A DNA stretch of 64,000 nucleotides from NCBI RefSeq assembly GCF_000422845.1, contig NZ_KE383931.1, forward strand, positions 1-64,000, in the 5' to 3' direction. The DNA is from Oceanobacter kriegii DSM 6294 (GTDB taxonomy: Bacteria; Pseudomonadota; Gammaproteobacteria; Pseudomonadales; Oceanobacteraceae). Position numbers and translations under genes: made by a program. The first letter of the stretch is position 1. Each line of letters starts with the position of its first letter. The notes beneath the pieces were generated by a model, which did not search any database, was not told where the DNA came from, and saw only the letters and a program-made list of their open reading frames with translations. Shown one piece after another: positions 29,288-62,476 of this stretch.

Positions 29288-29312
29288 TCAAACCTGAGTA
29301 AACCGCAACAAG

Positions 29313-29351: not shown

Positions 29352-29402
29352 AGAAAATGGCGATATAACACCAACAATGACGCCTGAGCCTGAAGTACGC
29401 CC

Positions 29403-44602: not shown

Positions 44603-44670
44603 TCCAGCCAAACCCCACCTGGTGCGACCGCGGTCAGACTCAAACAATGGAACATTGCTTGCTTATAAAA

Positions 44671-44683
44671 ACTTGAATATTCA
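44671..44683. promoter_or_regulatory. candidate AraC operator, regulator side
   Basis: The same ACTTGAATATTCA as at 41063, here extended to the perfect palindrome TTGAATATTCAA, 24-36 bases before the AraC-type start codon. That position suits autoregulation. Confidence 0.4.
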
Positions 44684-44706
44684 ATTATAAACAAGAGATT
44701 CCAGAC

Positions 44707-45681
44707 ATGAGAGAGACTGAATCACTGTCGCACTGGGACTACGCCGTCAAAGATATTTGTGGCACCTTCGCAACGCGTATTCACCCGCACATTCCTTTCA
44801 TTGGCAACATCACGCTCCGCAACCACGGCGGTCTGGAAATCGCTCATATTGAAACCAACGCCGAACGGGTTCTGCGCAGCAAACTCGCCTGCCGGGATGA
44901 CCGCTACTGCTTTCTTATTCTGCAAACCCACGGCGTTATGGGCTTTGTCGCCAGTAATGGCGATGAGCTGTCGCTGGCTCCGGGCGATATGCTGCTGATC
45001 GACTCATCCCATGAATTCGCCATGTTGCCGCAAGGGCTCATTCAACAACTGAGCTTTCACCTTCCACGCGAGAAGCTCCGGCACATCACCACTCCGAAAC
45101 GAGCCTTCCACAAGCTGGATTACCACAGCATCAGCGCCTTGTCGCTGCGCGGCATACTGCAGCAACTGCGCTTTTCGGACGTTCATTTTGGTGCAAAGCC
45201 ACAAGATGCCGAGGCGCTCCAACAAGCCATCATCGCCCTACTTACCGCCGCGTTGGGGCAACCCTCTGCACCTGAGATTTCCTTGCGCGATCAGGCAGAG
45301 CAACACATCCGGCGGCTGATTGCAGACCACCGGCTCTGTCCGGAAAAAATTGCCTCTGAAATGGGAATTTCACGTCGAAGCCTGTACCGGCTGTTTCAAC
45401 AGGAAGGTGGTAGCATCGCCCAGCACATTCTGGATTTGCGGTTGAACAATGCCGCTGCGGATCTTCAGTACCGGGGCCAGGATGCCCTTTCGGTGACCGA
45501 CATTGCCTTCCGCTGGGGATTCAACGATGTGTCGCAGTTTTCACGCGCCTTCAAACGGGAACTGGGCCTGTCGCCAACCGCTTACCGGCAACAAGCCCGA
45601 GAGATAATCAAGCCTTGCGGGCCCGCCCCTGACGCAGTCGCATCAGTACCGCACGCTGACGGCGATAATGTTCGAGGTTAA
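44707..45681 (+). CDS. AraC-family transcriptional regulator
   Basis: 324 residues. An N-terminal cupin-like AraC_binding_2 domain (to about 190) precedes the C-terminal double helix-turn-helix (CPEKIASEMGISRRSLYRLFQQEGG and VTDIAFRWGFNDVSQFSRAFKRELG, shown as key segments, then SPTAYRQQ). It follows the GMC-ALDH pair by 104 bases on the same strand and is the likely activator of that operon. The last 74 bases overlap, in antisense, the small gene at 45608. The architecture resembles FeaR-type regulators of aromatic amine/aldehyde catabolism. Confidence 0.85.
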   Translation: MRETESLSHWDYAVKDICGTFATRIHPHIPFIGNITLRNHGGLEIAHIETNAERVLRSKLACRDDRYCFLILQTHGVMGFVASNGDELSLAPGDMLLIDSSHEFAMLPQGLIQQLSFHLPREKLRHITTPKRAFHKLDYHSISALSLRGILQQLRFSDVHFGAKPQDAEALQQAIIALLTAALGQPSAPEISLRDQAEQHIRRLIADHRLCPEKIASEMGISRRSLYRLFQQEGGSIAQHILDLRLNNAAADLQYRGQDALSVTDIAFRWGFNDVSQFSRAFKRELGLSPTAYRQQAREIIKPCGPAPDAVASVPHADGDNVRG

Positions 45682-46048: not shown

Positions 46049-47227
46049 TCAGCCAGGATTTAACTCCGCCAACTCTGCCAGTGACGAACACCCCATCAAA
46101 TTCATCGCTCGGGCCATTTCTTCCTGCAGCAACGCCAGCACCCGGTCGCTGCCCGCTTCGCCAGCGGCAGCCACACCAAACAGCGTCGCGCGCCCCAGCA
46201 ATACGCCCGATGCGCCACAGCTGATGGCCTTGATCACGTCAACGCCACGGCGAATCCCGGAATCCAGCAAAACAGGAATGCGGCCATCGACCACCTCAAC
46301 AATCGGCCCAAGCGCCGCCATGGAGCTAATGGCACCGTCCAGCTGGCGGCCACCATGATTGCTGACCACCAATGCATCCACACCAGCATCCAACGCCAAC
46401 AGGGCATCACCCGGATGCAACACGCCTTTTAACACCAGCTTGCCCGGCCATTGCGCGCGAAGCGTTGCCAGATCATCCCAACTCAACAAGACGTTAAGTT
46501 GCTCAGCAATAAACTGCATGGCCCCCAGCGCCGACCGCTGCCCCGCAGGCAAATACGGGTTCAGATTGCCCATTGACGGCAAGCCGATACCATCCGATCC
46601 CGAGAGCATTACCCGTCGTAGCCATTGCGGATGCAGCAACACGTCCAGCTGATTTCTGAAGGTTAACTGACGCGGGGCGCTGAAATTTCGACGGTCCCAC
46701 TCCCTGTTGCCAACCACCAGCGCATCCGACGTAATCACCAGAGTATCGACCCCGGCATCCCGGGCACGCTGCAACAGGTCTTGCTGTATGCCTGCATCTT
46801 TCAAGGCGTACAACTGAAACCAGAAATCCAGCTGCGGACAGGCCTGCCGTACTTGCTCCACCGAGGCATTGGCCACCGTGCTGAGGCAAAAAGGAATCGA
46901 CGCCTTCATGGCCGATGTCGCCAGCAAAATATCCGCCTGCGGCCACAGCAGTCCATTAAACCCGGTTGGGCCAATGGCCATGGGCAACGCCGACGGCTTT
47001 CCAAGCATGGAAGACTGTAATTGCGGCGGGTGATTCGGCACCAGGGTGCGGCTCTGCAACGACAGCGACTGAAACGACGCACGGTTGGCCGCCAATGTCA
47101 GTTCATCTTCAGCACCACCCAGTAAATACTCACGGGCAAACGCGGGCAAATTGCGCTTTGCCTGCGCGGCCATTTCGTCCACCGACTGCACCCGCTGCAT
47201 GTCACCACCCTGATAATAACGCCTCAT
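46049..47227 (-). CDS. FMN-dependent alpha-hydroxyacid oxidase/dehydrogenase
   Basis: 392 residues, FMN_dh barrel. The active-site His/Arg motif is VVSNHGGRQLDGA, flavin-phosphate contacts are in LLDSGIRRGVDVIKAI and GRATLFG, and the N-terminal PAFAREYLLGGAEDE is typical. It oxidises an (S)-2-hydroxyacid (lactate, mandelate, glycolate or aryl-lactate) to the ketoacid. It is the last gene on the minus strand after the iac-type genes, 29 bases from the hydrolase. Indole-3-lactate or mandelate would suit that setting, but lactate cannot be excluded. An AGAAGGA site precedes the ATG. Confidence 0.8.
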   Translation of the reverse strand: MRRYYQGGDMQRVQSVDEMAAQAKRNLPAFAREYLLGGAEDELTLAANRASFQSLSLQSRTLVPNHPPQLQSSMLGKPSALPMAIGPTGFNGLLWPQADILLATSAMKASIPFCLSTVANASVEQVRQACPQLDFWFQLYALKDAGIQQDLLQRARDAGVDTLVITSDALVVGNREWDRRNFSAPRQLTFRNQLDVLLHPQWLRRVMLSGSDGIGLPSMGNLNPYLPAGQRSALGAMQFIAEQLNVLLSWDDLATLRAQWPGKLVLKGVLHPGDALLALDAGVDALVVSNHGGRQLDGAISSMAALGPIVEVVDGRIPVLLDSGIRRGVDVIKAISCGASGVLLGRATLFGVAAAGEAGSDRVLALLQEEMARAMNLMGCSSLAELAELNPG

Positions 47228-47256: not shown

Positions 47257-48216
47257 CTATTCTGATGCCGCGGTCTGTCGTTGTCCGAACGCCCGTCGCA
47301 AGAACAGCGGCAACTCGATTTTCACTGCCTGGGCTGCAGCGGCGTTATAGGCAAAGCGGCCGTCACTCTGCACGCAGTCGTTTTCAGGCCGGAACATACG
47401 GCCAGTGGTTTCATTCACCAACACGCCCTTGACGACTTCTTTCACAATACAGTCCCGGAACGATGTTGTGTTCTCTTCTGCCAGCCCTTCAGGGTGCTGT
47501 AAATCAAAGCCATGACCCGCATCATCATAGGCAACCACCTGAATATCAGCGCCATTGGCTTTGGCGCGACGGGCAAAGTCCTGACAGGAGCCAATGGCGT
47601 TAATATTGTCGTTCATACCATGGAAGATTCGCACGGGCGTGGCCAGCAGCTGGTCATCGTCCCGGTACTGGAAGCCACAATTGGGATAGAAGGCCGCTAC
47701 CGCGGCAAATTGCTGATCGGCCCGGCCATAAAGGGTCTGCATCCGCGACATGGCACTGTACAGGGCCGCCTGACCGGCGTCGGTAAAACCAACCAACGCG
47801 ATCCGGTGCATGTCGATGGCCGGATGATTGGCCAGCACATCCAGCGCCGCCCAGGCGTCGCGGATCATCGCCAGCTGGCGCATGCCGGTATAGGCCTCGA
47901 CACGGCCGTAGGTGCTTTCGACCAGAAAGGTGGCAATGCCCTGTGCATTCAATAATTCCACCCAGTCCTGCAATTCGTAGCTGTAGCCACCCGGGCCGTA
48001 CAGCAGGATCACCGCCGGATTGTCACTCGCCTGCGGCAGTTTCAGCGCCCCCACAATACCGGCCTGATGACCGCCCTTGCCGCGCAACAACTGCTGATCA
48101 GACATGGTTACTGTGTTGAACACATGGATTTCCGAGCGCATGGAAGCACTCGCGGTAGAGGGCAAGCCCGCCAGTAGCAGCCAGGTTGCAATCACCAGAC
48201 AAACAGAGTTTTTCAT
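47257..48216 (-). CDS. exported alpha/beta hydrolase, dienelactone hydrolase-like, with altered nucleophile elbow
   Basis: 319 residues from ATG at 48216, giving signal peptide CLVIATWLLLAGLPSTASAS. The DLH fold is visible: VILLYGPGGYSYEL (oxyanion region), FLVESTYGR, DAGHGFDL (catalytic Asp/His motif). The elbow that should be GxSxG or GxCxG reads GFTDAG, placing Thr145 at the nucleophile position. Either Thr acts, or the protein is not a hydrolase. Cys residues (about 200 and the C-terminal part) could form disulphides in the periplasm. It lies between the porin and the hydroxyacid oxidase genes in what seems one transcript. Confidence 0.65.
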   Translation of the reverse strand: MKNSVCLVIATWLLLAGLPSTASASMRSEIHVFNTVTMSDQQLLRGKGGHQAGIVGALKLPQASDNPAVILLYGPGGYSYELQDWVELLNAQGIATFLVESTYGRVEAYTGMRQLAMIRDAWAALDVLANHPAIDMHRIALVGFTDAGQAALYSAMSRMQTLYGRADQQFAAVAAFYPNCGFQYRDDDQLLATPVRIFHGMNDNINAIGSCQDFARRAKANGADIQVVAYDDAGHGFDLQHPEGLAEENTTSFRDCIVKEVVKGVLVNETTGRMFRPENDCVQSDGRFAYNAAAAQAVKIELPLFLRRAFGQRQTAASE

Positions 48217-48338
48217 CGGATACCCCGAAGGATGCCGCTGACAGCCCCTCCCTGGTATCAGCAAGCACATAAAAAAGTATGGGAAACAGCAAAAGGCAGC
48301 CGCGTGGCGGCTGCCTTGTTGGCCTTCACACCGTCAGA

Positions 48339-49568
48339 TCAGAACTGACGGGTATAAGTGGTGATAAAGCGGAATTCGCGGAAGCCGGAAGTCCAGCTAC
48401 GGTCAATCCACATATCACGGGCGGAGAATGCCAAACCCTTAAAGGTTTCGTCCTGAACGGCGTAGGTCAGGAATACGTCACGCTCGGACTGGTGCTCGTC
48501 ATCACCACCGGCAACGTCAATGTCCTTACCGAAGATGTACTGGGTCATCAGCGACAGACCAGGCGCCCCCAGGTCTTTAAAATCGTAGCCATAACGGATA
48601 CCGGTGGATTTCTCATCCGGCATGATGAAGGCGGCCATTGACCAGTGCAGAGTGTAAGGCTGTGGTACGTAACCGTTCAGCGTTGGCACCGCACGCTCGC
48701 CGTCGATGCTCTGATAGCTCAGGCGCAGTTTGTGGTTGCCATGAGCCAGGCCCAAACCTGTGCTCAACACATCCACGTCCATATCGTCGCCGCCATAGGC
48801 TTTACCGTCGTTACCGTAGTCCAGGTAGCGCAGGTCGTAACTAACGCCCGTATCGCCAAACTTGTTTTTGTAGGCCAGTGCGTAGGTGTTCTGGGTGTAG
48901 AAATCTTTCAGCTGGCCATAGTAGTAAGTACCGCTGAGGGTCTTGGTAAACCCGTAGGTCGCGCCGGCAAAGTACAGGCCGTCGGAGCGGTTTTCGTCCT
49001 GGCCACGGTAAACATAAAACTCCTCTTTATCGGAAGAGTTACGGGTCACGGCTTTCCAGAACACACCGGCCTTGAGGTCGAGGCCCTCCACTTCTTTGGA
49101 TTCCAGTACCGCACCTTCGTAGATGGTGGTCAGCACGCGGCTTGGGTCTTCCCATGCCACCGGCAGGTGTGGACGGTAGTCACCGATTTTCAGTTCGGTG
49201 TTGGAATACTTCAGCTTCAGGGTGGCACCCAGACGACCGTAGTTATCGACAGCTTCACCATCGCTGTCGAGAGGCAGCGAGCCGTCATTACCTTCGGAGT
49301 CCAGCACAATGGCGTCGGTGGTGTTCACATCCAGACCCACCTTCACCTTGGTGTCGGTGTAGCCAGAGATAAACTGCAGGTCGACGGCTTGTGACCAGTT
49401 GCCTTCCTCGGTGTCATTTTTGGTGTAGCGGCGATCCAGGTAGTAGTTTTTCAGCTGCATTTTCAGCGCTGAATCTTCCATAAAATCTGCCTGCGCAGTG
49501 CCCGTGGCAGCCAAACCGGCCATGGCCGACACCAGCAAGCCTGTCGTGGAAATAGTGTGTCTCTTCAT
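48339..49568 (-). CDS. OprD-family outer-membrane porin
   Basis: 409 residues from the ATG at 49568 (AAAAGGAAA upstream), with signal peptide ending GTAQAD. The mature protein alternates hydrophobic residues in many strands and ends in FRFITTYTRQF, whose terminal Phe is the usual barrel-assembly signal. The start DSALKMQLKNYYLDRRY and the SYD/YGYDFK patterns fit the OprD/OpdK group, which admits aromatic and other organic acids and basic amino acids. Between iacG and catabolic enzymes it probably carries the pathway's acid substrate across the outer membrane. Confidence 0.85.
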   Translation of the reverse strand: MKRHTISTTGLLVSAMAGLAATGTAQADFMEDSALKMQLKNYYLDRRYTKNDTEEGNWSQAVDLQFISGYTDTKVKVGLDVNTTDAIVLDSEGNDGSLPLDSDGEAVDNYGRLGATLKLKYSNTELKIGDYRPHLPVAWEDPSRVLTTIYEGAVLESKEVEGLDLKAGVFWKAVTRNSSDKEEFYVYRGQDENRSDGLYFAGATYGFTKTLSGTYYYGQLKDFYTQNTYALAYKNKFGDTGVSYDLRYLDYGNDGKAYGGDDMDVDVLSTGLGLAHGNHKLRLSYQSIDGERAVPTLNGYVPQPYTLHWSMAAFIMPDEKSTGIRYGYDFKDLGAPGLSLMTQYIFGKDIDVAGGDDEHQSERDVFLTYAVQDETFKGLAFSARDMWIDRSWTSGFREFRFITTYTRQF

Positions 49569-49784
49569 CGTGGTTTTCCTTTTTCTTTGCTCAGTACCAG
49601 TGCTGCTAACGCCCGCCAGCAAAATGCCAGACAAAACGAACAGCCGTTAGGGTGATTGGCGGTTTTGTTCAAGAGCTATTAGCTACACCAAAACGTTTCA
49701 ACCGCTCTTTTTCGCTGGTAACGAAGCCCCCGGCTTCGCCGCCCCCTCGTACCACCGGACCTATCCTTGCCCGGCGTCTTGCAT

Positions 49785-49838: not shown

Positions 49839-50333
49839 CTATGCCACCGAGCTGTCGCACAAACGGTGGTAATTACGATTGAAATACACCAGACCAGCAT
49901 CGGCAGAACCAATGCGAACATCCTGAATGCGGCAGTAAAACACCGTGTGCGAGCCCATTTCGTGGCTTTCGTGGATGGTGCAATCGAAGTTCACCAGCGC
50001 TTCGTCCAGCGCCGGAGCGCCGGTGGTCAGGTTGGTGAATGAATGACGGGAAAATCGCTCTTCGCTGTTCAGATCGCGGTTGGCGAAATCCCACGACACG
50101 TTCTGGTGGTCGCCATTCAGTACGTTGACGCACAACACGCCGTTGGTCTTAAAGTGGTCGTGGGCGTACGAATTGCGGTTCATGCACACCAGCAACGTCG
50201 GTGGCTCATCGGTAACACTGCACACGGCGGTGGCAGTAAAACCAAAGCGTCCGGCTTCGCCGTCGGTGGTGATGACGTTAACGGCACCGCCCAGCAGAGC
50301 CATGCCATTTCGAAATGCCTGGGTATCAATCAT
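49839..50333 (-). CDS. iacG: flavin reductase component, IacG-like
   Basis: 164 residues from ATG at 50333 (CAGGAG upstream). The flavin_reduct fold includes MALLGGAVNVITTDGEAG, GFTATAVCSVTDEPPTLLVC and the C-terminal YFNRNYH. It reduces free FAD or FMN with NAD(P)H for a partner monooxygenase, here presumably IacA encoded in the same cluster. The equivalent gene is iacG in the Pseudomonas putida IAA cluster. It is preceded by iacF with 26 bases between, one unit. A strong hairpin follows. Confidence 0.8.
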   Translation of the reverse strand: MIDTQAFRNGMALLGGAVNVITTDGEAGRFGFTATAVCSVTDEPPTLLVCMNRNSYAHDHFKTNGVLCVNVLNGDHQNVSWDFANRDLNSEERFSRHSFTNLTTGAPALDEALVNFDCTIHESHEMGSHTVFYCRIQDVRIGSADAGLVYFNRNYHRLCDSSVA

Positions 50334-50359
50334 GGAAATTTCTCCTGCTGTTGGCCGAC

Positions 50360-51319
50360 TCACAGATCCAGCACCAAACGCGGGGTTTTGGAGCGTGAGC
50401 AGCAAATGGTCATTTGGTCGTTGTCTTCCTTTTCCTCATCGGTCAGGAACACATCGCGGTGTTCGGGAATGCCTTCCACCACGTCGCACAGGCAAGTACC
50501 GCAGGTGCCCTGCTCGCACGACACAGGGATTTTCATACCCGCGGCGTTCAGTGCCTGGGCGATGGTTTGATCCGGCCCCACGGTCACGGTGATGTCACTG
50601 GCTTCGGCATATACCTCGAAGGCTTCGCCGCCGGTTTCCACTTCTACCTGGAAGAATTCCTTGTGCATGCGGTCGTCGCTGAAGCCCTTGCTGGCTGCAG
50701 CGTCCATCACCCAATCCATAAAGCCCGCCGGGCCACAGGTGTACATATGGGTGGTGTCATCACTGCCTTCGTAAACGGCCTCAAGATCAACCCGCTTGCC
50801 GTCGTGTTCGTCGCCAAACCAGAAGTGAACCTGTGCGGCGAAGGGGCTGTTGGCGAGATCGTCAATAAAGGCCGACGTGGCACGGGAACGACCGCAGTAC
50901 CAGATATCAAACGGCTTACCCGCTGCATGCAGCGCATACGCCATGGCGATCATCGGCGTGATGCCAATACCGCCGCCAATCAGAATCGAACGGCCGTTCG
51001 TTTCAGACAGTGGAAACAGGTTACGCGGGGCACTGATTTGCAGCTCAGTGCCTTCGTGCAAATGCTCGTGAACGGCGATGGAACCGCCACGGGAATCCGG
51101 GTCGCGCAAGACCCCAACCCGATACGCCGAGCGGTCGGCGGGGTTGTTGCAAAGCGAATACTGACGCACCAGATCGCCTTTTAGGTGCAGGTCAATGTGT
51201 GCACCCGCTTCAAACACCGGCAAAGGCTGCCCTGCTGGATCTACCAACTCCAGGGCAACAACGCCTTCGGCTTGTTGTTCGCGCTTGCGAACGACGACGG
51301 TCAACAACTCGTCTGTCAT
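50360..51319 (-). CDS. iacF: dioxygenase reductase (vanillate demethylase reductase type), IacF-like
   Basis: 319 residues of the phthalate dioxygenase reductase family. FMN-binding RQYSLCNNPADRSAY comes first, the NAD domain is GGGIGITPMIAMAY and YTCGPAGFMDW, and a C-terminal plant-type 2Fe-2S domain has ligands in VSCEQGTCGTCLC and a late Cys (ICC). It passes electrons from NADH to the Rieske oxygenase. In the IAA cluster this role is IacF. It sits 500 bases from iacE, separated by palindromic repeats, and heads the iacFG-porin part of the cluster. Confidence 0.85.
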   Translation of the reverse strand: MTDELLTVVVRKREQQAEGVVALELVDPAGQPLPVFEAGAHIDLHLKGDLVRQYSLCNNPADRSAYRVGVLRDPDSRGGSIAVHEHLHEGTELQISAPRNLFPLSETNGRSILIGGGIGITPMIAMAYALHAAGKPFDIWYCGRSRATSAFIDDLANSPFAAQVHFWFGDEHDGKRVDLEAVYEGSDDTTHMYTCGPAGFMDWVMDAAASKGFSDDRMHKEFFQVEVETGGEAFEVYAEASDITVTVGPDQTIAQALNAAGMKIPVSCEQGTCGTCLCDVVEGIPEHRDVFLTDEEKEDNDQMTICCSRSKTPRLVLDL

Positions 51320-51414
51320 GTTATTTCTCCGTCCGGCCAGGCCGGTTTTCTGCGTGAGTATTTCTTTCTTGGTCAGACGTCTGAAGCCAGATGCCTGACG
51401 CTTTATTCGGGAGC

Positions 51415-51700
51415 GCGGCGGTGCGCAGTGCGCACCCTACAAGTTGCTCCCGTTGGTCATGTGTAGGAGCGAATTCATTCGCGAATAAATTCGCTCCTAC
51501 AAAAGCGTGTCGCTCGTAATTTGTTTGCCCTGCGGTACAGGGCTTCGCAGGCAAGCCAGCTCCTACAGCATCTGTGTACGTAGGAGGTAGCTTGCTGCCG
51601 ATAGTCGTTTACCCTTTGATGGGCGGGGCCCATCCTACGAACGCCACACCTGAAACGTAGGAGCGAATTCATTCGCGATTAGCTTCTGACCAATCGCGTA
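51415..51700. repeat. repeat cluster splitting the iac genes
   Basis: The 504-base gap between iacE and iacF has no gene. It holds GGTGCGCAGTGCGCACC (51420), GTAGGAGCGAATTCATTCGC (51462) facing GCGAATAAATTCGCTCCTAC (51480-51499), GGCAAGCCAGCTCCTACA, GTAGGAGGTAGCTTGCTGCC (51580), GGGCGGGGCCCATCC (51622) and TAGGAGCGAATTCATTCGCG (51658), then two direct copies of GCGTACCGGAGC (51696 and 51731). All are members of the repeat families seen elsewhere. Confidence 0.8.
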
Positions 51701-51823
51701 CCGGAGCGTTAACGAGGCAGGCAGAGCAAGGCGTACCGGAGCCCGGACACAAGACATACCAAATGGGTAGGCGCAGTGACGGGCGAGGACACAACGAAGC
51801 TATGCCAACGCAGTTAGCTCCGA

Positions 51824-52582
51824 TCACCTCATGAAGAGGCCGCCATTCACATCCCAAGTCGTGCCCGTGGTGAAATACGCCTCTGGCCTTGCCAGCTGCA
51901 CCACCATGTCGCCGATAAAATCGGCGTCTCCCAGGCGTCCAGCAGGAATGTTGGCCAGCAGGCCTGGCAAGCGTTCTTCCGGCACCAGCGCCTTCACCAT
52001 CGGCGATTCGATCGGGCCCGGGGCGATGGCGTTTACAGTCACGCCGCTGGCGGCCAGTTCCTTGGCGAATACCTTGGTGATGGTGATGATGCCGCCCTTC
52101 GAGGCCGCGTAATGGGCACCGGTGCTGGTGCCGCCGTTCTGTCCTGCCAGTGAAGCCATGTTGATGATGCGACCAAAGCCCTGTTCGGCCATGTAGGCGC
52201 CCATTACCTGGCAACCACCGAAGCAGCCACCCAGGTTGATGCTGACCACTTCGTTGAACTCTTCGAGGGAAATCTCCATCACTGGTGTAGCGCGTGTCAC
52301 GGCGGCGTTGTTTACCAACACCTGAACACTGCCCCAGCGGTCGATCACGGCGTCCAGCGCCTGCTGATAGTCGCTTTTGCTGGCGATATTCAGGCCCACG
52401 GCCATGGCGGTGGCGCCACTGCTATCGAGCTGGTTGGCTGCGGTTTGAGCGGCGTCGACGTTGATATCCGTCACAACAACCCGGTAACCGGCCTGATGCA
52501 GTCGACTGGCGATGTGAAAGCCAACGCCCTGGGCGGCGCCGGTTACCAGTGCCACTGGCTGTGTTGCGATACTTGTGGTCAT
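51824..52582 (-). CDS. iacE: short-chain dehydrogenase/reductase, IacE-like
   Basis: 252 residues from ATG at 52582 (AGAAGGAAA upstream). The Rossmann start is ALVTGAAQGVGFHIA, with NNAAVTRA, catalytic Ser in NMASLAGQNGG, Tyr-Lys in HYAASKGG and the PG motif AIAPGPIESPMV. An NAD(P)-dependent alcohol/ketone oxidoreductase. In the IAA pathway IacE helps turn hydroxylated IAA into the dioxindole acid; the assignment rests on gene order and family. It lies 24 bases after iacD in the same transcript and is the last gene before the repeat cluster. Confidence 0.8.
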   Translation of the reverse strand: MTTSIATQPVALVTGAAQGVGFHIASRLHQAGYRVVVTDINVDAAQTAANQLDSSGATAMAVGLNIASKSDYQQALDAVIDRWGSVQVLVNNAAVTRATPVMEISLEEFNEVVSINLGGCFGGCQVMGAYMAEQGFGRIINMASLAGQNGGTSTGAHYAASKGGIITITKVFAKELAASGVTVNAIAPGPIESPMVKALVPEERLPGLLANIPAGRLGDADFIGDMVVQLARPEAYFTTGTTWDVNGGLFMR

Positions 52583-52606
52583 GGAAATTTCCTTCTGCCT
52601 GGCCAA

Positions 52607-53089
52607 TTAGAAAACGAAGCTGACGGTGCGCAGGAAGCCATCGGCGTGCAGCAACTTGACGACTTTCTGTTCAATCTGGAAACCGCCATCCACCGGTTTG
52701 AGGGTGTATTCGACGTTGGCCGGATAGGTAACCAGCTTGCCGTGACGCAGTTCGTTGAGGGTTTGTGCCGAGCGCACAATCACTGCTTCGTCACCGGCTT
52801 CCAGAATGCGTACCCGTGACACCATGCGAACGGTTGAGCCAACGGAATTGGCGGATACCGATTCACCGTTTTCCAATCGGGCCACACGCATACGGCGCAT
52901 GTCGGCGTCATCCAAAGCCAGGTTCAGGGTGCTGAGGTAGTCGGTTTCGTTGAGGTCGGTCGGTACGATGTACAAACCGCTGTCGGTCCACAGCGACAGC
53001 CATTCCTGATAGCCCTTGTGGTCCAGCAGGTCGGCCTCGTAGCTGATGAATTCGGTCACCAGCGCCAGCAGTTGAGTGTTGGATTTCAT
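52607..53089 (-). CDS. iacD: ring-hydroxylating dioxygenase small (beta) subunit, IacD-like
   Basis: 160 residues with the cystatin-like Ring_hydroxyl_B fold: EFISYEADLLDHKGYQEWLSLW near the start, then YIVPTD, VARLENGESVSANSVGS and the end LRTVSFVF. It forms the structural subunit of an alpha3beta3 Rieske oxygenase with the protein encoded 3 bases upstream. It has no metal sites of its own. Order alpha then beta is as in IAA clusters. Confidence 0.85.
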   Translation of the reverse strand: MKSNTQLLALVTEFISYEADLLDHKGYQEWLSLWTDSGLYIVPTDLNETDYLSTLNLALDDADMRRMRVARLENGESVSANSVGSTVRMVSRVRILEAGDEAVIVRSAQTLNELRHGKLVTYPANVEYTLKPVDGGFQIEQKVVKLLHADGFLRTVSFVF

Positions 53090-53092
53090 GGC

Positions 53093-54421
53093 TTATTTCT
53101 CCTCAACAGTGTCTGTGGTTGCGGTTTTGGCGCTCTGACCGGCGGCCATCACTTGCTTGTATTTGGCGTAAGCTCCACGCATGCCGGTTTCCGAGCACAC
53201 CGCGCCTTGCGGGTTGCCATCTGCGGAGTCGCGCAGCTTGGTCATGCCGCGGTTAACCAGAATCCAGCCGTCAGTACCGGCCATGGAGCCTTTTTGAACG
53301 CGCTCCCAGGCTTCACCATCGTCTGGCGTACCAAAGCCCATTGGGCCTTGAAAGTGCTCATGCAAACGCATGCGCTTCTGGTTGAAGGCGTTTGGTGCAC
53401 CGGCACCGCCAATGGCAACGTGCTGGATTTCGGTTTCATCCACCGATACCGGACGCAGCACCCGGAAAAACGCCATGGAGCAGGACACGTTCGGGAACAG
53501 GTTGAGGTTGAAGCCAGTGCCGTGGGCTGCACGCACAAGTTTCTTCACTTCGTCTTCCGACTTGCCTTCGTCACGCAGTGCCTGAGCCAGCGAGTTGAAA
53601 CGTTCAGGGATCGGCTGATCCAGATCGGCCTCCAGGTCGGTCAGCTCAGGAATCATCACCATCACACTGTGGCCGTTGCCCAGGTCTTCAACAAAGCCTT
53701 CGCCGTCCAGGAAGTCGAAGATGTCGGCGGTGGCTTCATCCAGCGAGCTCACAAATGACTTGTGAACAATCGGGAAGTGGTAGGCATCGGTGGTGTTTTC
53801 CAGCTGGATTTTCCAGTTGCCCGGAAAGTTAAAACGGTGTTCGCCCAGCACTTGCAGCGGGTAGCCACCGCCCTGCTTCATAAACAGATCAATCCACTTT
53901 TTGGCACCACCAAGGAAGTCGGCCAGTGGCTCAATGTCCTGATTGAAGGTGGCGAAAATCATGCCTTGGTAGGAGTCCCACTTGAGGCTTTCCAGCGGCA
54001 TATCTTTCTTGTCGAAAACACCGTCGTACTCTTCCGGCTTAGGCAGCGCACGCAGCGAGCCATCAAGGCCGTAGCCCCAGCCGTGGTAAGGGCAGGTAAA
54101 GGCTTTGGTTTTGCCTTTGCGGGCTTCACACACGGTGGCACCGCGGTGACGACAACGGTTTTGCAGTACGTGGATGTTCATTTTGCGGTCGCGGCTGATG
54201 ATCACCGGGTGACGACCCACGTAAGAGGTTTTGAAGCTGCCCGCTTCCGGCACTTCGCTTTCGTGACCAACAAACACCCAGGTTTTGTTGAACACCAGAT
54301 CAATTTCTTCTTCAAAGATTTCCGGGTTGGAGTACAGCTCTTTTTTTACCCGGCCGTTTTCTACATCGACCATGTCAGCGGCTTGGGTGCCGATGTTTTT
54401 CAATGCAATCAATTCACTCAT
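53093..54421 (-). CDS. iacC: Rieske dioxygenase large (alpha) subunit, IacC-like
   Basis: 442 residues. The Rieske 2Fe-2S ligands are Cys90, His92, Cys110 and His113 (NRCRHRGATVC...FTCPYHGWGY). The mononuclear iron ligands lie in ENTTDAYHFPIVHKS (Asp212 bridge, His215, His220). It adds O2 to an aromatic ring using electrons from IacF. In IAA breakdown IacC/IacD act on the dioxindole acid to give catechol. It is a dioxygenase of the benzoate/anthranilate-like group by architecture; substrate is inferred from its neighbours. Confidence 0.85.
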   Translation of the reverse strand: MSELIALKNIGTQAADMVDVENGRVKKELYSNPEIFEEEIDLVFNKTWVFVGHESEVPEAGSFKTSYVGRHPVIISRDRKMNIHVLQNRCRHRGATVCEARKGKTKAFTCPYHGWGYGLDGSLRALPKPEEYDGVFDKKDMPLESLKWDSYQGMIFATFNQDIEPLADFLGGAKKWIDLFMKQGGGYPLQVLGEHRFNFPGNWKIQLENTTDAYHFPIVHKSFVSSLDEATADIFDFLDGEGFVEDLGNGHSVMVMIPELTDLEADLDQPIPERFNSLAQALRDEGKSEDEVKKLVRAAHGTGFNLNLFPNVSCSMAFFRVLRPVSVDETEIQHVAIGGAGAPNAFNQKRMRLHEHFQGPMGFGTPDDGEAWERVQKGSMAGTDGWILVNRGMTKLRDSADGNPQGAVCSETGMRGAYAKYKQVMAAGQSAKTATTDTVEEK

Positions 54422-54499
54422 GGCTATCTCTCTTTCAATTTGGTTGGCGTGGCATCTGCACGGCTTTCTGGCTGGCGCTCTAACCTGCGTTCAATACGG

Positions 54500-55024
54500 C
54501 TACTTGCCCGGAACAGGCAGGCTGGCGTCGCTGTTCCAGTGATCAACAGGGCGACTGAACAGGTTTTCAGTCTGGAAATGACACATCCGCCACACCCCGT
54601 TGTCGCATCGGAAGCGCACTGTCAAACGGGCGCTGTTCAGGTGCGATCTGCCGTCACTGAAGGTCGACACCTGCAACATGTTCCAGCTGCCGCTGGCGTC
54701 ATTGCCCTCCACCTGAATCAGCTCAGAGGTCAGGTAATGAACGTTGAGGGCAAAATGGGCAGGCTCGACGCAGTACTTCGCCAGCATGGCGACAATGGCG
54801 TCGCGGCCCTGATGGCCACCGAAGCTATTGGCGTACCGAGCGCCCTTGCCTTCCCAGCAAGCATCCTCGGTGAACAGGTCGCCCAATTCGTCCAGCGGCG
54901 TACAGGCATCGAGTCGGTCGCACAAATCCATGTAACGATTGATGCAACGGCGAATACCTTGTTGACTGGCTTGCTGGTGCTCCAGCTGTTGCAGACGTTG
55001 CTGCAATGCGTGCAAATCCGTCAT
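54500..55024 (-). CDS. iacI: SnoaL-like protein, IacI-like
   Basis: 174 residues. The start MTDLHALQQRLQQLEHQQAS is a short coiled coil, then a SnoaL_4-type cone fold (INRYMDLCDRLDACTPLDELGDLFTEDACWEG, in parts; RFRCDNGVWRMCHFQ near the end). The fold hosts isomerases, small hydroxylases and structural partners of ring dioxygenases. IAA clusters contain an accessory gene, iacI, which I believe has this fold; the symbol is tentative. It lies between iacB and iacC, which differs from the usual order. Confidence 0.65.
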   Translation of the reverse strand: MTDLHALQQRLQQLEHQQASQQGIRRCINRYMDLCDRLDACTPLDELGDLFTEDACWEGKGARYANSFGGHQGRDAIVAMLAKYCVEPAHFALNVHYLTSELIQVEGNDASGSWNMLQVSTFSDGRSHLNSARLTVRFRCDNGVWRMCHFQTENLFSRPVDHWNSDASLPVPGK

Positions 55025-55037
55025 GGCGATCTCTGCC

Positions 55038-55400
55038 TTACGCCCGTTGTACGATCAGTTCACGACCGATACGGGATTCGATCTTGCAGTAGCGCCACAG
55101 CTTGTACGGGGTGTCGCCCACAGCGGTGGTACGGAACAGGTTGCAGCAGGCCACTACAGTGTCGTAATCGGCCACGTCTGCCAGCAAATAGGTGGTCCAT
55201 GGGTAACCGGTGGAAGGGCCAACCATGCTCTGGTCGTCGTCCATATTGCCGATCACTTCAACGCCTTCCATGTCATGAATGGCATTCCACATGCTGCCGA
55301 ACGCGGCCCATACATCGAGCTGCTCTTCACGCGGGGCGTCCATAAAGTTCTGGTTGATGCCCATGCAAAACAGCACGCGCAATGGTTTCTTTTCGCTCAT
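55038..55400 (-). CDS. iacB: small conserved protein, IacB-like
   Basis: 120 residues of an EthD/ferredoxin-like alpha-beta fold (LRVLFCMGINQNFM; STGYPWTTYLLADVADYDTV; a C-terminal YCKIESRIGRELIV). It follows iacA directly, the position of iacB in known IAA clusters. The biochemical role of IacB is not well established, though it seems needed for normal IAA conversion. No catalytic residues can be pointed to. It is in one operon with the genes on both sides (13 and 40 bases apart). Confidence 0.7.
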   Translation of the reverse strand: MSEKKPLRVLFCMGINQNFMDAPREEQLDVWAAFGSMWNAIHDMEGVEVIGNMDDDQSMVGPSTGYPWTTYLLADVADYDTVVACCNLFRTTAVGDTPYKLWRYCKIESRIGRELIVQRA

Positions 55401-55440
55401 TTATCTAACTCCTGTTCGCTTGATTCTGACTGCCTGGCAC

Positions 55441-56583
55441 TTACAAATAGCCGGGCAACGGGTCGTGGCCGAAGAACATGGCACCGGCGTTTTTCAGGGT
55501 GATACGGCCCATAAAGGCGTGCTGGGTCACCATTCGGGAATCACGCAAAATGCGAGACAATGGATGCTTGCTGTAAGCGCCGGTCATGCCGGTTACCTCG
55601 TACGTCATGCGTACCGCTTCGGCGCATTCATGAGCCAGCGTGGTGGTGGCAAGACGAATCAGATTGGTCTGATCCGCTGACGGCTTGCCGCCTTGTTGAA
55701 TGGTTTCCCAGGCTTCCTCTGTCACCTGATAGAAGAAGGCGCGGGAGGCCCGCAATTTGGCCTCGGCCTGGGCAATTTCAATTTGCACGTACTCGCGCTG
55801 GCCAAGGTTCGGGGCACCGGTCACAGACTGGCGTCCGGCCGCTTCGGCCTGCACCACATCAAGGGCTTCACGGGCCAGACCGGCACAGGTAATGGCCAAC
55901 ACCTGAGCAGCAAACGACAGGCTTGGGTAACGGAAGAAGTCCGAATCGAGGTTCGGTTTTCCGCCCCGCACAAAGGTCCACTCTTCCGGCACAAACTGGT
56001 TTTCAACCACCAGGTCGTGGGAGCCGGTGCCAACCATGCCGATCACATCCCAGTTGGGCTTGATAGTGACCTTGTCAGCCGGGAAAACCGCCATGCGGGG
56101 CAGTGGTTCGTTTTCATCCTTGATGCCAACGCCAATCAGCGATGCACCCTTGCAGCCAGAGCCGAATTTCCAGGTGCCACTGACCATAAAGCCGCCGTCT
56201 ACCCGCTCGGCCTTTTGTGGCGGGAAAATACCGCCGGCAAACACCACATCCGGGCCGCCAGACCACACCTTGTCGATGGTTTCCAGTGGCAGTGCTGCCA
56301 AATAGGCCGGGTTCATACCAAAACTGGCAACCCAACCGGATGAACCGTCTGCTGCAGCAATGGCTTCCACCATTTGCAGGAATTCCATTGGCGAACGCTC
56401 GTCGCCGCCCAATGCTTTGGGCACCATGGCGCGATACACACCGATTTCGCGAAAACGCTCAATGATGTCCTGAGCAATGTATTGCTGATCCTCGAACTCC
56501 TGTCGGCGCTCGCGAATATCAGCCAGCAGCGCATCGAATGCGTCGCCTCCCCAAAGGGATTTATCAATTTGATAAGCAGGCAT
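55441..56583 (-). CDS. iacA: flavin-dependent indole-3-acetate monooxygenase, IacA-like
   Basis: 380 residues with the acyl-CoA dehydrogenase fold used by group D two-component flavin monooxygenases (HsaA, DszC, indole oxygenase). Segments YRAMVPKALGGDERSPMEFL, ADGSSGWVASFGMNPAYLA, GTWKFGSGC and TGSHDLVVENQFVP match this group; there is no catalytic Glu of true dehydrogenases that I can place. It should hydroxylate the indole ring of IAA at C2 using reduced flavin from IacG. First gene of the minus-strand iac operon, AGGAG ten bases before the ATG. The 700-base region upstream is shared with the Liv-type transporter. Confidence 0.8.
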   Translation of the reverse strand: MPAYQIDKSLWGGDAFDALLADIRERRQEFEDQQYIAQDIIERFREIGVYRAMVPKALGGDERSPMEFLQMVEAIAAADGSSGWVASFGMNPAYLAALPLETIDKVWSGGPDVVFAGGIFPPQKAERVDGGFMVSGTWKFGSGCKGASLIGVGIKDENEPLPRMAVFPADKVTIKPNWDVIGMVGTGSHDLVVENQFVPEEWTFVRGGKPNLDSDFFRYPSLSFAAQVLAITCAGLAREALDVVQAEAAGRQSVTGAPNLGQREYVQIEIAQAEAKLRASRAFFYQVTEEAWETIQQGGKPSADQTNLIRLATTTLAHECAEAVRMTYEVTGMTGAYSKHPLSRILRDSRMVTQHAFMGRITLKNAGAMFFGHDPLPGYL

Positions 56584-57285: not shown

Positions 57286-58443
57286 ATGCCATCACGGAAA
57301 ACCCTTTCTGCCCTGATCGCCGCAGCCACCCTGGCTTCCTCAATGGTTGCCCCGGTTGCCATGGCCGACATCAAGGTCGGCGTTGTGACATCCAGCACTG
57401 GCCCGATCGCGCTGGTCGGCATTCCACAGAAGAACACCGTTGCGCTGCTGCCAGATCATGCAGGCGGTGAAAAGATCACCTACATCCCACTGGACGACGC
57501 CAGCGACCCAACCGCTACCGTCAAGGCCTTCAAAAAGCTGATTGATGATGAAAAAGTGGACGCCATCATTGGCCCAAGCGGCTCTGGCAACGCCATGGGC
57601 GTGATCCAGTTTGCCGCCGAATCCGGCACACCAATGCTGGCCCCGGTGGGAACGGCCGCGGTGGTACTGCCAATGACGGAAGAAAAGAAGTGGGTGTTCA
57701 AAACCACCCAGAACGACGACCTGATTGCCGCCGCACTGGTTGACCACATGAAGAAATCCGGTGTCAAAACCATCGGCATGATGGGCACCGCCGACCCATA
57801 CGGCGAGAACTGGTCCCGCGTAATGAAAGGCCTGACCGAAAAAGCCGGCATCAAGATTGTTGCCGACGAACACTTCCAGCGTCAGGACACCTCTCTCACT
57901 GGCCAGAGCCTGAAAATCCTGATGTCCAACCCGGACGCCGTACTGATTGCGGCACCAGGATCGTCCTCGGTCATGCCACAAACCACCCTCAAGGATCAGG
58001 GCTACAGCGGTCAGATTTACCAGACTCACGGAGCCGCACTGGACCCATTCCTGCGCCTCGGTGGCAAAGCGGTTGAAGGCACCATTTTGGCCGCCAGCCT
58101 GATGCTGGTACTGGACGAAGTGCCTGAAAGCAAGTCGAAGGAAATCGCGGAAGACTACGTTGACCGCTACACCCGCATTTACGGCAATGCACCAGCCACC
58201 TTCGGCGGTAACGTTTACGACGCCGGCCTGTTGCTGCAAAACGCCATCCCGGCCGCCCTCGAACAGGGCAAACCAGGCACCGCCGAATTCCGTGCTGCAC
58301 TGCGTACCGCACTGGAAAACACCACCGAAATGGCGGCCACCCAGGGCGTTTATAACCTCACCCCGGAAGATCACAGCGGCTTCGACGAACGTGGTCGTGA
58401 ACTGATCACCGTGAAAGACGGTGGCTGGGCGCTGATGGACTAA
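57286..58443 (+). CDS. Liv-type ABC transporter substrate-binding protein
   Basis: 385 residues. The signal peptide ends VAMAD, then the Peripla_BP_6 fold with VGVVTSSTGPIALVGI, SDPTATVKAFKKLIDDEKVDAIIGPSG (in parts) and APVGTAAVVLP. Members of this group next to aromatic catabolic genes often bind aromatic acids (benzoate derivatives, for example) rather than branched-chain amino acids. Divergent from iacA, so an IAA or related acid ligand is plausible. GGAGATACTC precedes the ATG. It is the first gene of a complete transporter set. Confidence 0.85.
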   Translation: MPSRKTLSALIAAATLASSMVAPVAMADIKVGVVTSSTGPIALVGIPQKNTVALLPDHAGGEKITYIPLDDASDPTATVKAFKKLIDDEKVDAIIGPSGSGNAMGVIQFAAESGTPMLAPVGTAAVVLPMTEEKKWVFKTTQNDDLIAAALVDHMKKSGVKTIGMMGTADPYGENWSRVMKGLTEKAGIKIVADEHFQRQDTSLTGQSLKILMSNPDAVLIAAPGSSSVMPQTTLKDQGYSGQIYQTHGAALDPFLRLGGKAVEGTILAASLMLVLDEVPESKSKEIAEDYVDRYTRIYGNAPATFGGNVYDAGLLLQNAIPAALEQGKPGTAEFRAALRTALENTTEMAATQGVYNLTPEDHSGFDERGRELITVKDGGWALMD

Positions 58444-58595
58444 ATCAGACCAAGCCACACCTGCAGAGCACGATCTGCGCCCACCAGCCCAACTCCCCGC
58501 TGGCGAGGCGCAGACACAATACGACAACAATTACCGGAGTCAGACGGTGCCCAAGCACCGCCGTGCAGTCCCGGTAACGCAAGGACTCAGACGCA

Positions 58596-59630
58596 ATGAA
58601 TTTTCAGATTGCCCTTATTCTGGGGCAGGACGGCATCACCAACGGGGCCATTTACGCCCTGCTGGCACTGTCGATTTTGCTGGTGTTTACCGTCACCCGC
58701 ATCCTGCTGATCCCGCTGGGTGAATTCGTCACCTTTGGTGCCCTGACCATGGCCGCCATTCAAATGGGCAAAGCGCCCGCACTGGAATGGCTGCTACTGG
58801 CCCTGACCCTGATCGACTGCGGCATGGACCTGTACCAATACCGCCACAAACTGGACGGCCGTAAGTTCCAGACCATTGGCCTCAAACTCGGCTATGTGAT
58901 CGCCATGATCGCACTGATTCAAACCCTGCCGCTGGCCGAACTGCCAATGGTATTCCAGGCCCTGCTGACACTGGCGCTGATGGTTCCACTGGGCCCATTA
59001 ATGTACCGCCTGTTCTTCCAACCACTGGCAGACGCCCCGGCGCTGGTACTGCTGATTGTATCGATCGCCGTGCACGTTGCCATGGTCGGTGTTGGCCTGC
59101 TGCTGTTTGGGCCTGAAGGCGCACGCACAGAGCCATTCACTGATACCGTATTCCGCGTTGGCCCTATGATGCTGAAGAGCCAGACCCTGTGGGTGATCAT
59201 GGTGTCTGTGATTCTGATCGTGACCCTGTTCCTGCTGTTTGAACGCACGTTATATGGCAAGGCACTGCGCGCTACTGCCGTAAACCGTACCGGCGCACGC
59301 TTGCTGGGCATTTCGCCAGTATTTGCAGGCAAGGCAACGTTTGCTCTGGCGGCCTTCATTGGCACCCTGTCCGGCATCCTGATTGCCCCAATCACCACCT
59401 TGTACTTCGACTCCGGCTTCATCATCAGCCTCAAGGGCTTTGTTGGCGCCATCATCGGCGGCCTGATCTCCTACCCGCTGGCAGCCGTTGGCGCTGTTGC
59501 CGTAGGCCTGATCGAAGCCTTCTCGATGTTCTGGGCTTCGACCTACAAGGAAATCATCGTCTTCACCCTGATCATTCCGTTCCTGATCTGGCGTTCGATG
59601 ACCAGCCACCACGTAGAGGATGACGAGTGA
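58596..59630 (+). CDS. Liv-type ABC transporter permease, LivH family
   Basis: 344 residues and about nine membrane helices. The start ([37 protein letters not shown] in parts) and the cytoplasmic coupling loop [22 protein letters not shown] are the LivH signatures. An extra cytoplasmic stretch ([15 protein letters not shown], about 73-88) lengthens it beyond the usual 290-300. It forms half of the membrane channel. The stop overlaps the next gene by one base (TGATG). Confidence 0.85.
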
Positions 59631-61477
59631 TGAATACTGCAACTCTGAAATCAAGCGCAACCAAATCCAACAACCTACTGAAGCCGACCAACCTGATGTT
59701 GGCTGGCCTGGTGGTGGTACTGATCGCCCCGATGGTCGCTCCTACCTATACCGTCACACTGCTGAACTACATCGGCCTGTATGCGCTGGTGGTTCTGGGC
59801 CTGGTACTGCTGACCGGCGTTGGCGGCATGACCAGCTTCGGCCAGGCCGCGTTTGTCGGCCTCGGCGCTTACAGCACCGCTTATTTGACTACTACCCAGC
59901 AACTGCCTGAATGGCTGGCATTCACCGCGGGTTCGCCATGGGCCGGACTGGCCATGGGCCTGCTGCTGACGGCGGCCGTAGCACTGTTCCTGGGCGCTGT
60001 TACCCTGAAGCTGTCTGGTCACTATCTGCCACTGGGCACCATTGCCTGGGGTATTTCGCTCTACTACCTGTTCGGCACCATGTCTTCCATGGGTGGCCAC
60101 ACCGGTGTTAGCGGCCTGCCATCGCTGTCGATCTTTGGCATCGAGCTGGATAAGGGCGAGAAGATTTATTACCTCATATGGGCCGTACTCGCCGTCGCCA
60201 TTTTGATTACCCGCAACCTGCTCAACAGCCGCGAAGGCCGCGCCATTCGCGCCCTCAAGGGTGGCCAGCTGATGGCAGAATCCATGGGTGTTAACACCTT
60301 CCGTTCGAAAATGGTGATCTTCCTGATCTCTGCCATCTTCGCTGCCATCTCTGGCTGGTTGTACGCCCACACCCAACGCTTTGTTAACCCAACGCCGTTT
60401 GGCCTGCACATGGGCATCGACTACCTGTTTATGGCATTGATCGGCGGGGTTGGCAGTGTTTGGGGCGCCCTGCTGGGTGCTGGCGTGCTGACCATGCTGA
60501 AACAGTGGCTGCAAGACCTGCTGCCAATGATTCTGGGTAGCGATGGCCAGTACGAAACCATCGTCTTTGGCCTGCTGATTGTAGTCATGATGCAGCGCTG
60601 GCCAGGCGGTCTGATGGGCCTGCTGGCGAAACTGGTACCGGCCAAATACCGCGACCACTCGGATCTGACGCTTAACGATGACGCCGCTGAACTGCCTCGC
60701 CGGGAGCTGCCCAAAGCGGGTGACCTGGTGCTGGAAGCCTGCGACGTTACCCGTAAATTCGGTGGACTTGTGGCCAACAACCAAATGAACCTGCAACTGC
60801 ACGCTGGTGAAATTCTGGCCCTGATTGGCCCCAACGGCGCTGGCAAATCCACCATGTTCAACCAGCTGTCTTCCGTTGATACCCCAACCGAAGGTGAAGT
60901 GAAGTTCATGGGCCAGAGCCTGAAAGGCAAAAGCTCTCGTGAAGTCGCCCAAATGGGCATGAGCCGCACCTTCCAGCACGTAAAACTGCTGCCAACCATG
61001 ACGGTACTGGAGAACGTCGCCCTCGGTGCCCACATGCGTGGCTCCAAAGGCGTTGTCCCTGCTGCCCTACACCTGGAGCGCGAAGAAGAGCAGCGCCTGC
61101 TGAAAGAAGCCAAACACCAGCTTGAACGTGTTGGCCTGGGCGACTTCCTCTACGAAGAAGCCGGCTCCCTAGCACTGGGCCAGCAGCGTATTCTGGAAAT
61201 TGCTCGCGCCCTCTGCGCCGACCCTTGCGTATTACTGCTCGACGAACCCGCCGCTGGCCTGCGCTTTAAAGAGAAGAAAGCCCTTGCCGACCTGCTGACC
61301 AAATTGCGCGGCGAAGGCATGGCCATCCTGCTGGTTGAGCACGACATGGACTTCGTTATGGGACTGGTCGATCGCATCGTGGTGATGGAATTCGGCACCA
61401 AAATCGCCGAAGGCCTGCCGGAAGAAATCCAGACCAACCCTGCTGTATTGGAAGCCTATCTGGGAGGTGCCGAATGA
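59630..61477 (+). CDS. Liv-type ABC transporter permease-ATPase fusion (LivM-LivG)
   Basis: 615 residues. The N-terminal LivM permease (about 20-330; LLTGVGGMTSFGQAAFVGLGAYS in parts, then EGRAIRALKGGQLMAESMGV) is fused to a LivG ATPase. Walker A is GPNGAGKS, the signature is LALGQQRILEIARAL (Q-loop family LALGQQ in place of LSGGQ, a common LivG variant), and Walker B is VLLLDEPAAGL. Such fusions are frequent in proteobacterial aromatic-acid transport systems. The ATG at 59630 overlaps the LivH stop; a GTG one codon earlier is an alternative. The stop overlaps the next gene (ATGA). Confidence 0.85.
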   Translation: MNTATLKSSATKSNNLLKPTNLMLAGLVVVLIAPMVAPTYTVTLLNYIGLYALVVLGLVLLTGVGGMTSFGQAAFVGLGAYSTAYLTTTQQLPEWLAFTAGSPWAGLAMGLLLTAAVALFLGAVTLKLSGHYLPLGTIAWGISLYYLFGTMSSMGGHTGVSGLPSLSIFGIELDKGEKIYYLIWAVLAVAILITRNLLNSREGRAIRALKGGQLMAESMGVNTFRSKMVIFLISAIFAAISGWLYAHTQRFVNPTPFGLHMGIDYLFMALIGGVGSVWGALLGAGVLTMLKQWLQDLLPMILGSDGQYETIVFGLLIVVMMQRWPGGLMGLLAKLVPAKYRDHSDLTLNDDAAELPRRELPKAGDLVLEACDVTRKFGGLVANNQMNLQLHAGEILALIGPNGAGKSTMFNQLSSVDTPTEGEVKFMGQSLKGKSSREVAQMGMSRTFQHVKLLPTMTVLENVALGAHMRGSKGVVPAALHLEREEEQRLLKEAKHQLERVGLGDFLYEEAGSLALGQQRILEIARALCADPCVLLLDEPAAGLRFKEKKALADLLTKLRGEGMAILLVEHDMDFVMGLVDRIVVMEFGTKIAEGLPEEIQTNPAVLEAYLGGAE

Positions 61478-62244
61478 GCGTACAAGCCCTTAACACCAAC
61501 AAGCCACTGCTTGCCGTCAAAGACCTGCGGGTTTCCTACGGCAAGGTAGAAGCCGTTTCCGGCATCGACCTGACGCTGAAAGAAGGCCAGCTGGTGACTG
61601 TGATCGGCCCTAACGGCGCCGGTAAGACCACCCTGCTGTCGGCCATCATGGGCCTACTGCCTTCCAAAGGCGACGTCCACTTCGATGGCGAAGACTACGT
61701 CAGCCCGGAAATCGAAACCCTGGTGGGCCGAGGCTTGGGTCTGGTGCCCGAAAAGCGCGAGCTGTTCTCCACCATGACGGTGGAAGACAACCTGCTGCTG
61801 GGTGCTTTCCAGCGCTACCGCAAAGGCGACGACACCTTTGAAAACACGCTGGCAGAGGTATACAGCCTGTTTCCGCGCTTGCACGAACGTCGCCACCAGC
61901 AAGCAGGTACCCTGTCTGGCGGCGAGCGTCAGATGCTGGCCATTGGCCGCGCCATGATGGGCAAGCCACGCTTGCTGATGCTGGACGAACCGTCACTGGG
62001 TCTGGCACCACTGATCACCCGTGAGATTTTCCGCATCTTTGCCGACCTGCGTCGTCAGGGTGTATCCATCTTGCTGGTGGAACAGAACGCCCGTGCCGCC
62101 TTAAAAGTGGCGGATTACGCCTACGTTCTGGAAGGTGGCCAAATTGCCATGCAAGGCCCCGCTGCCGAACTGGCTAACGACCCACGGGTGATCGAAGCCT
62201 ATTTGGGTCTGGCCAGTAAGCATCAGGAGCTTCTGTCGAGTTAA
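61474..62244 (+). CDS. Liv-type ABC transporter ATPase, LivF family
   Basis: 256 residues. Walker A is GPNGAGKTTLLSAIMG, the ABC signature is LSGGERQMLAIGRAM, Walker B is LLMLDEPSLGLAPL, and the H-loop region ILLVEQNARAALKVADYAYVLEGG follows. It pairs with the fused LivG domain to power import. It starts at an ATGA overlap with the fusion gene. Last gene of the transporter operon, followed by a strong hairpin at 62316. Confidence 0.9.
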   Translation: MSVQALNTNKPLLAVKDLRVSYGKVEAVSGIDLTLKEGQLVTVIGPNGAGKTTLLSAIMGLLPSKGDVHFDGEDYVSPEIETLVGRGLGLVPEKRELFSTMTVEDNLLLGAFQRYRKGDDTFENTLAEVYSLFPRLHERRHQQAGTLSGGERQMLAIGRAMMGKPRLLMLDEPSLGLAPLITREIFRIFADLRRQGVSILLVEQNARAALKVADYAYVLEGGQIAMQGPAAELANDPRVIEAYLGLASKHQELLSS

Positions 62245-62344: not shown

Positions 62345-62476
62345 CAAATCTAACGACCGGTAGTCTATCGCTTAAACAGACAACACGAACGACCCGCACG
62401 CTTAACTTGCGTGCCTGGAAATCAAGAAAAAATAGCAAGACCCAAACTGCAAGACCGAAGGAAAGGAAAACACCAC

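Follow-up and report, generated by a model that had tools for sequence, protein, structure and literature searches.

Does the DNA at the start of contig NZ_KE383931.1 of Oceanobacter kriegii DSM 6294 encode the breakdown of indole-3-acetic acid (IAA), and if so, is the pathway arranged in a way not met elsewhere? The window analysed here is the whole stretch of 64,000 nucleotides (positions 1 to 64,000, assembly GCF_000422845.1), and the genes in question are homologues of iacA, iacB, iacI, iacC, iacD, iacE, iacF and iacG. Judged from sequence, these genes very probably encode an ordinary iac-type pathway for the use of IAA. This reading is based on eight open frames of the expected families, an order A-B-I-C-D-E that is found in 40 of 79 named iac loci, the placement of IacA with Marinobacterium proteins, an iacR gene next door, and the arrangement known from Marinomonas. 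Clusters of this kind and with this layout are already known, and both the gene calls and the functional guess of the original prediction are sound. The core of the locus is as follows:

55441..56583, minus strand, iacA, flavin monooxygenase of the acyl-CoA dehydrogenase (ACAD) fold, 82% identical to IacA of Marinobacterium halophilum
55038..55400, minus strand, iacB, without a library family, sharing 88-89% identity with its positional counterpart in loci L027, L028 and L029
54500..55024, minus strand, iacI, SnoaL-like protein, from family search and the same place in relatives
53093..54421, minus strand, iacC, Rieske oxygenase alpha subunit, from family searches and alignment
52607..53089, minus strand, iacD, ring-hydroxylating beta subunit, from family searches
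51824..52606, minus strand, iacE, short-chain dehydrogenase, from family searches
51320..51823, no strand, iacE-iacF spacer with repeats resembling repetitive extragenic palindromic (REP) elements at 51463-51500 and 51657-51678
50360..51319, minus strand, iacF, ferredoxin-type reductase, from family searches
49839..50405, minus strand, iacG, flavin reductase, from family searches

All eight frames, spanning 49839-56583, are open on the minus strand. Seven of the products belong to the expected families by Pfam and NCBIfam, and IacB, the sole exception, is assigned by its identity to the genes in the same place, which bears out the product-by-product fit to the iac set claimed in the original prediction; the order A-B-I-C-D-E-(repeats)-F-G is likewise present as described. 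The listed start codon of both iacE and iacG is TTG, and internal ATG codons at about 52582 and about 50333, respectively, are the likelier starts. In an alignment of ten proteins, IacC residues C90, H92, C110, H113, D212, H215 and H220 are invariant, and we take these to be the Rieske and iron-site residues. A careful tree places IacA among Marinobacterium-type IacA proteins. Its score against the NCBIfam model of HsaA is 164.5 bits, far below the cut-off of 450, and an identity as HsaA, named with the original prediction as a grouping that would speak against it, was therefore dropped.

On either side of the core lie genes that matter for the comparison with other iac loci, including a regulator just beyond the window:

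64649-65131 (L020:2650-3132), outside the window, after the aldolase, MarR gene taken as iacR from its identity to MarR genes of iac loci
63609..64000, plus strand, class II aldolase, extending past the window end to 64385
62411..63463, plus strand, 2-dehydropantoate-2-reductase-like gene, from family searches
57286..62244, plus strand, branched-chain-type ABC transporter (binding protein, permease, fused permease-ATPase, ATPase), from family searches
48339..49634, minus strand, OprD-family porin, a library family
47257..48270, minus strand, secreted-looking alpha/beta hydrolase of the dienelactone-hydrolase family, a library family
46049..47227, minus strand, alpha-hydroxyacid enzyme dependent on flavin mononucleotide
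44707..45681, plus strand, AraC-family regulator of FeaR type, over the curated NCBIfam cut-off
43121..44602, plus strand, aldehyde dehydrogenase, nearest model phenylacetaldehyde dehydrogenase, under its cut-off
41440..43128, plus strand, GMC (choline-dehydrogenase-like) oxidoreductase, from family searches
39698..41017, minus strand, amidase of the Marinomonas "IacH" type

The MarR gene at 64649-65131 is very probably iacR, since it is 60-76% identical to MarR genes in the iac loci L027, L045, L037 and L039. Another MarR gene, at 37649-38119, was considered for this role and dropped, its best match among the open reading frames of the fetched loci being 34.5 bits. The claim of a complete set is right for iacA, B, C, D, E, F, G and I, which stand together, and needs two corrections: iacR is found beyond the window end, and the amidase is of another type than the Pseudomonas IacH.

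The original prediction also held the gene order and the setting to be new. The comparison covered 79 named loci from the best 80 matches of an IacC alignment search (more exist), with an identity floor of 35% and flanks of at most 10 kb; because of this floor, diverged copies, namely the B of some Acinetobacter and the G of Acinetobacter and Marinobacterium, are counted as missing. The unbroken order A-B-I-C-D-E extends through F in 31 of the loci and through G in 20. In the remaining loci iacI lies elsewhere, a gene falls under the floor, or the end of the locus cuts the set. The order A-B-I-C-D-E-F-G was also observed in all six further relatives fetched, with the exceptions of iacI in L023, unmatched in its usual place, and a weak iacG match in three. 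With these counts, the published iacHABICDEFG clusters and the near-identical block in Marinomonas (PMC11373566), the claim of novelty was given up.

The published account of Marinomonas sp. NFXS50 and MWYL1 describes iacR, an aldolase, a reductase, an ABC transporter, iacABICDEFG, a hydroxyacid enzyme and an amidase (PMC11373566). The Oceanobacter locus shares iacR, the aldolase, the 2-dehydropantoate 2-reductase, the ABC transporter and iacABICDEFG with these strains, together with the alpha-hydroxyacid enzyme and a divergent IacH-type amidase. It differs in the porin and hydrolase between iacG and the hydroxyacid enzyme, the dehydrogenase and FeaR genes before the amidase, and the repeats between iacE and iacF. 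The order iacHABICDEFG has been published for Enterobacter soli LF7, Acinetobacter baumannii ATCC 19606 and Pseudomonas LY1 (PMC8383072). These clusters have A-B-I-C-D-E-F-G as here, but iacH stands directly before iacA, and in LF7 and LY1 catechol genes are close to iac, unlike here; the LY1 cluster also has a porin, which showed the strongest rise on IAA (217-fold). Pseudomonas putida 1290 encodes the same enzymes, has OprD-like and ABC ATP-binding genes lying upstream, and carries phenylacetaldehyde genes on the island that holds iac, whereas its order iacABCDEFG-R-HI, with catR-catBCA close by, differs from that of Oceanobacter (PMC6624763).

Another close match in layout is L027, a metagenome-assembled genome (MAG; Pseudomonadota bacterium, bin02 ROSE), which has the same order of reductase, ABC transporter, ABICDEFG, OprD, hydroxyacid enzyme, GMC, aldehyde dehydrogenase and AraC genes, and whose IacC is 89% identical to that of Oceanobacter. 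Unlike the Oceanobacter locus, L027 has an amidase, of the 29% type, directly before iacA; its iacR is found in the interval from the hydroxyacid enzyme to GMC rather than beyond the aldolase; it lacks the hydrolase, and its iacE-iacF gap is 93 bp as against 504 bp here. Its genome has a catechol 2,3-dioxygenase, and none that is convincing was found here.

Of the added genes, which the original prediction counted as departures, the hydrolase alone holds that place, with a counterpart in none of the 79 loci; the porin has homologues in 13 and the hydroxyacid enzyme in four, besides the Marinomonas clusters. The hydrolase, encoded between the porin and the hydroxyacid enzyme, has one weak solved relative, and as a guess, it might attack IAA esters in the periplasm. 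On the other side, the ABC transporter genes diverge from iacA across about 700 bases, and the binding protein has a homologue of at least 55% identity in 16 of the 79 loci.

In the pathway as we picture it, the OprD porin and the ABC transporter would let IAA into the cell. The flavin reductase IacG would feed IacA, which would oxygenate the indole ring, and IacE would then give 3-hydroxy-2-oxindole-3-acetate, a step shown in print for Caballeronia homologues. The Rieske pair IacCD with the reductase IacF would probably open the ring system by angular dioxygenation, as has been proposed for IacCD (PMC8383072). IacB and IacI would act in undefined steps, catechol would be the end product, the amidase would probably free ammonia from an amide that arises during the breakdown, and the MarR-type IacR beyond the window would be the regulator.

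The amidase shares 57-61% identity with the iac-near amidases of L022, L023, L028 (Marinobacterium ramblicola) and L029 (Marinomonas transparens); the values fall to 41-44% for those of the iac loci L051, L055, L079, L093, L098 and L101, and to 28-30% for the Pseudomonas-type IacH of L027, L039 and L046. Its nearest solved structure is malonamidase E2, and its best NCBIfam model, well under the cut-off, is indoleacetamide hydrolase. The substrate may be a small amide acid derived from the side chain, yielding ammonia, or indole-acetamide. As a departure from P. putida, the remote amidase stands in so far as it is not a Pseudomonas-type IacH, but an amidase is also present in the published Marinomonas clusters.

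Several observations weigh against an ordinary iac pathway. With a Pseudomonas-type IacH as query, nothing in the whole genome exceeded 35% over most of the length, and one partial match reached 42%. The iac filing is kept because Marinomonas clusters differ likewise and are still called iac; the published Marinomonas amidase is 28.6% identical to P. putida IacH (PMC11373566). The operon is also split by repeats between iacE and iacF, in a gap of 504 bp, as compared with a largest value of 226 and a middle value of 46 among those named loci (62 of 79) that allow the measurement. The repeat unit is a 22-base near-palindromic element, GTAGGAGCGAATTCATTCGCGA. With at most two mismatches the genome has 57 sites for it, 27 of them forward and 30 reverse, as against none for a reversed control, and these are therefore dispersed REP-like elements. 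With the element spread through the genome, including further window copies at 25720-25741 and 37485-37506, the repeats were dropped as a component of the pathway. Finally, searches of the genome, which is 99.8% complete and in 36 contigs, turned up no convincing candidate for a catechol 1,2- or 2,3-dioxygenase, the best scores being 24.6 bits for TIGR02439, 36 for PF00775 and 28 for TIGR03211. A weak intradiol match (L106:1081-2169) was discarded; it is a protein of 362 amino acids whose leader is lipoprotein-like and which includes a stretch of low complexity.

Catechol genes accompany iac in the published strains, as reported (PMC11373566, PMC6624763, PMC8383072), and NFXS50 has a catechol 1,2-dioxygenase (PMC11373566). 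In a sample of the order, 12 of 13 other iac genomes have a candidate, either a catechol 2,3-dioxygenase scoring over cut-off or a frame of at least 298 amino acids that matches PF00775 with at least 130 bits, PF00775 covering both CatA and protocatechuate 3,4-dioxygenase; the exception, G170, has only a pair of 246 and 205 amino acids that is protocatechuate 3,4-dioxygenase-like by length. A PF00775 survey of 49 of the 79 named loci (30 were omitted, mostly alphaproteobacteria and incomplete sets) gave matches of at least 100 bits in 42 genomes, not sorted into CatA and protocatechuate 3,4-dioxygenase; among the 42, G297, for example, has only a protocatechuate 3,4-dioxygenase-like pair. The seven genomes without a match, and G325, all have a catechol 2,3-dioxygenase over cut-off except G295 (Marinomonas transparens). 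Since M. transparens has the same gap, the Oceanobacter genome is unusual, not unique. LigB-type extradiol places number seven in the genome, and the five examined comprise one homoprotocatechuate and one gallate dioxygenase over cut-off and three of class III subfamilies. Among L121-L125, L121 carries a 4-hydroxyphenylacetate set of HpaA regulator, homoprotocatechuate dioxygenase and hydroxylase.

How far do other explanations fit these data? It is very improbable that the substrate of the IacA-like enzyme and its partners is a different aromatic compound, such as plain indole or a phenol of HsaA type. The ACAD fold is common to IacA, HsaA and HPA hydroxylase, and Rv3094c is the closest solved relative of IacA, but the score of IacA lies far below the HsaA cut-off and the whole iac set is collinear, iacB and iacR included; for an indole oxygenase the argument comes from the cluster, not from the tree. 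Somewhat less improbable, yet still unlikely, is an incomplete pathway, in which the strain would use or detoxify IAA only in part and excrete catechol, and the operon would be either in decay or recently pieced together. The dioxygenase gap at such completeness and the repeats that interrupt the operon would suit it, as would the mixed kinship of the genes. The nearest copies are of Marinobacterium type and MAG origin for IacA and IacC, of Marinomonas type for IacG, from L022 for IacI and from MAG L027 for IacF, a pattern drawn from quick single-gene trees with which the careful IacA tree agrees for IacA; the operon looks like a mosaic, as if parts had been exchanged. Against incompleteness, every frame is open, one of the putative LigB-type extradiol enzymes might cleave catechol, a gene may have been missed with 36 contigs, and M. 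transparens, of a genus with IAA users, shares the gap.

A further proposal supplements the iac reading and does not replace it. The genes at 41440-45681 suggest a conversion of arylethylamines, alcohols or aldehydes to arylacetates, which would include IAA and would fit phenylacetate too; since their homologues are again neighbours of iac in Pseudomonas, Acinetobacter and a MAG, they may feed indole-acetaldehyde or tryptophol into IAA. A wider auxin funnel, in which the amidase converts indole-acetamide and the FeaR-controlled GMC and aldehyde dehydrogenases convert tryptophol and indole-acetaldehyde, is possible, though we lean against it. It agrees with the passing of the FeaR model, with the closeness of the aldehyde dehydrogenase to phenylacetaldehyde dehydrogenase, and with indoleacetamide hydrolase as the top model for the amidase; yet both of these enzymes score under the cut-offs, malonamidase E2 is the closest solved relative of the amidase, and phenylacetaldehyde or other substrates would fit equally. 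At least two of the GMC, aldehyde dehydrogenase and AraC homologues are found near iac in 10 of the 79 named loci, but not, within flanks of at most 10 kb, in the other 69. In Acinetobacter pittii (L073:14711-21182), the regulator and GMC are separated by genes for a copper amine oxidase and for a protein of 425 amino acids that no Pfam family matches. Among 50 iac genomes, this one included, GMC matches reach E 1e-180 or better in 12 and at least 60% identity in 10; in eight of these 10 the coordinates, with contig numbers taken as listed contigs, put the gene no more than about 15 kb from iac, but it is away from iac in G321 and G324. Among 293 genomes of the order, a GMC match above 60% occurs only in the Oceanobacter genome itself, and two others reach 49-50%. 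For A. baumannii, an amine oxidase and an aldehyde dehydrogenase have been proposed for IAA synthesis, with iac not mentioned in the available part of the report (PMC3527336), and a partial literature search found no published proposal linking such a module to iac. Quite unlikely is the extended version, in which 39.7-65.1 kb forms an auxin funnel (amide, alcohol and aldehyde to IAA, then iac) and a LigB-type (class III) enzyme, rather than CatA or a 2,3-dioxygenase, cleaves the catechol; this combination as the route for IAA carbon was not found in the literature searched.

Elsewhere in the window, a 502-amino-acid DUF3360 protein (743 bits) is encoded at 6906-8414, and 26258-31459 holds genes for a TRAP transporter (DctP, DctQ, DctM) and, after them, for a histidine kinase with a Cache domain and a response regulator of LuxR type.

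For the biology of iac clusters, the apparent lack of a catechol dioxygenase raises the question of where the carbon goes, and the recurring FeaR, dehydrogenase and amine-oxidase neighbours hint at entry points of indole precursors. With its probable iac-type pathway, O. kriegii would be one more likely auxin degrader, with genes kin to those of Marinobacterium and Marinomonas, and this kinship makes a marine or algal link plausible.

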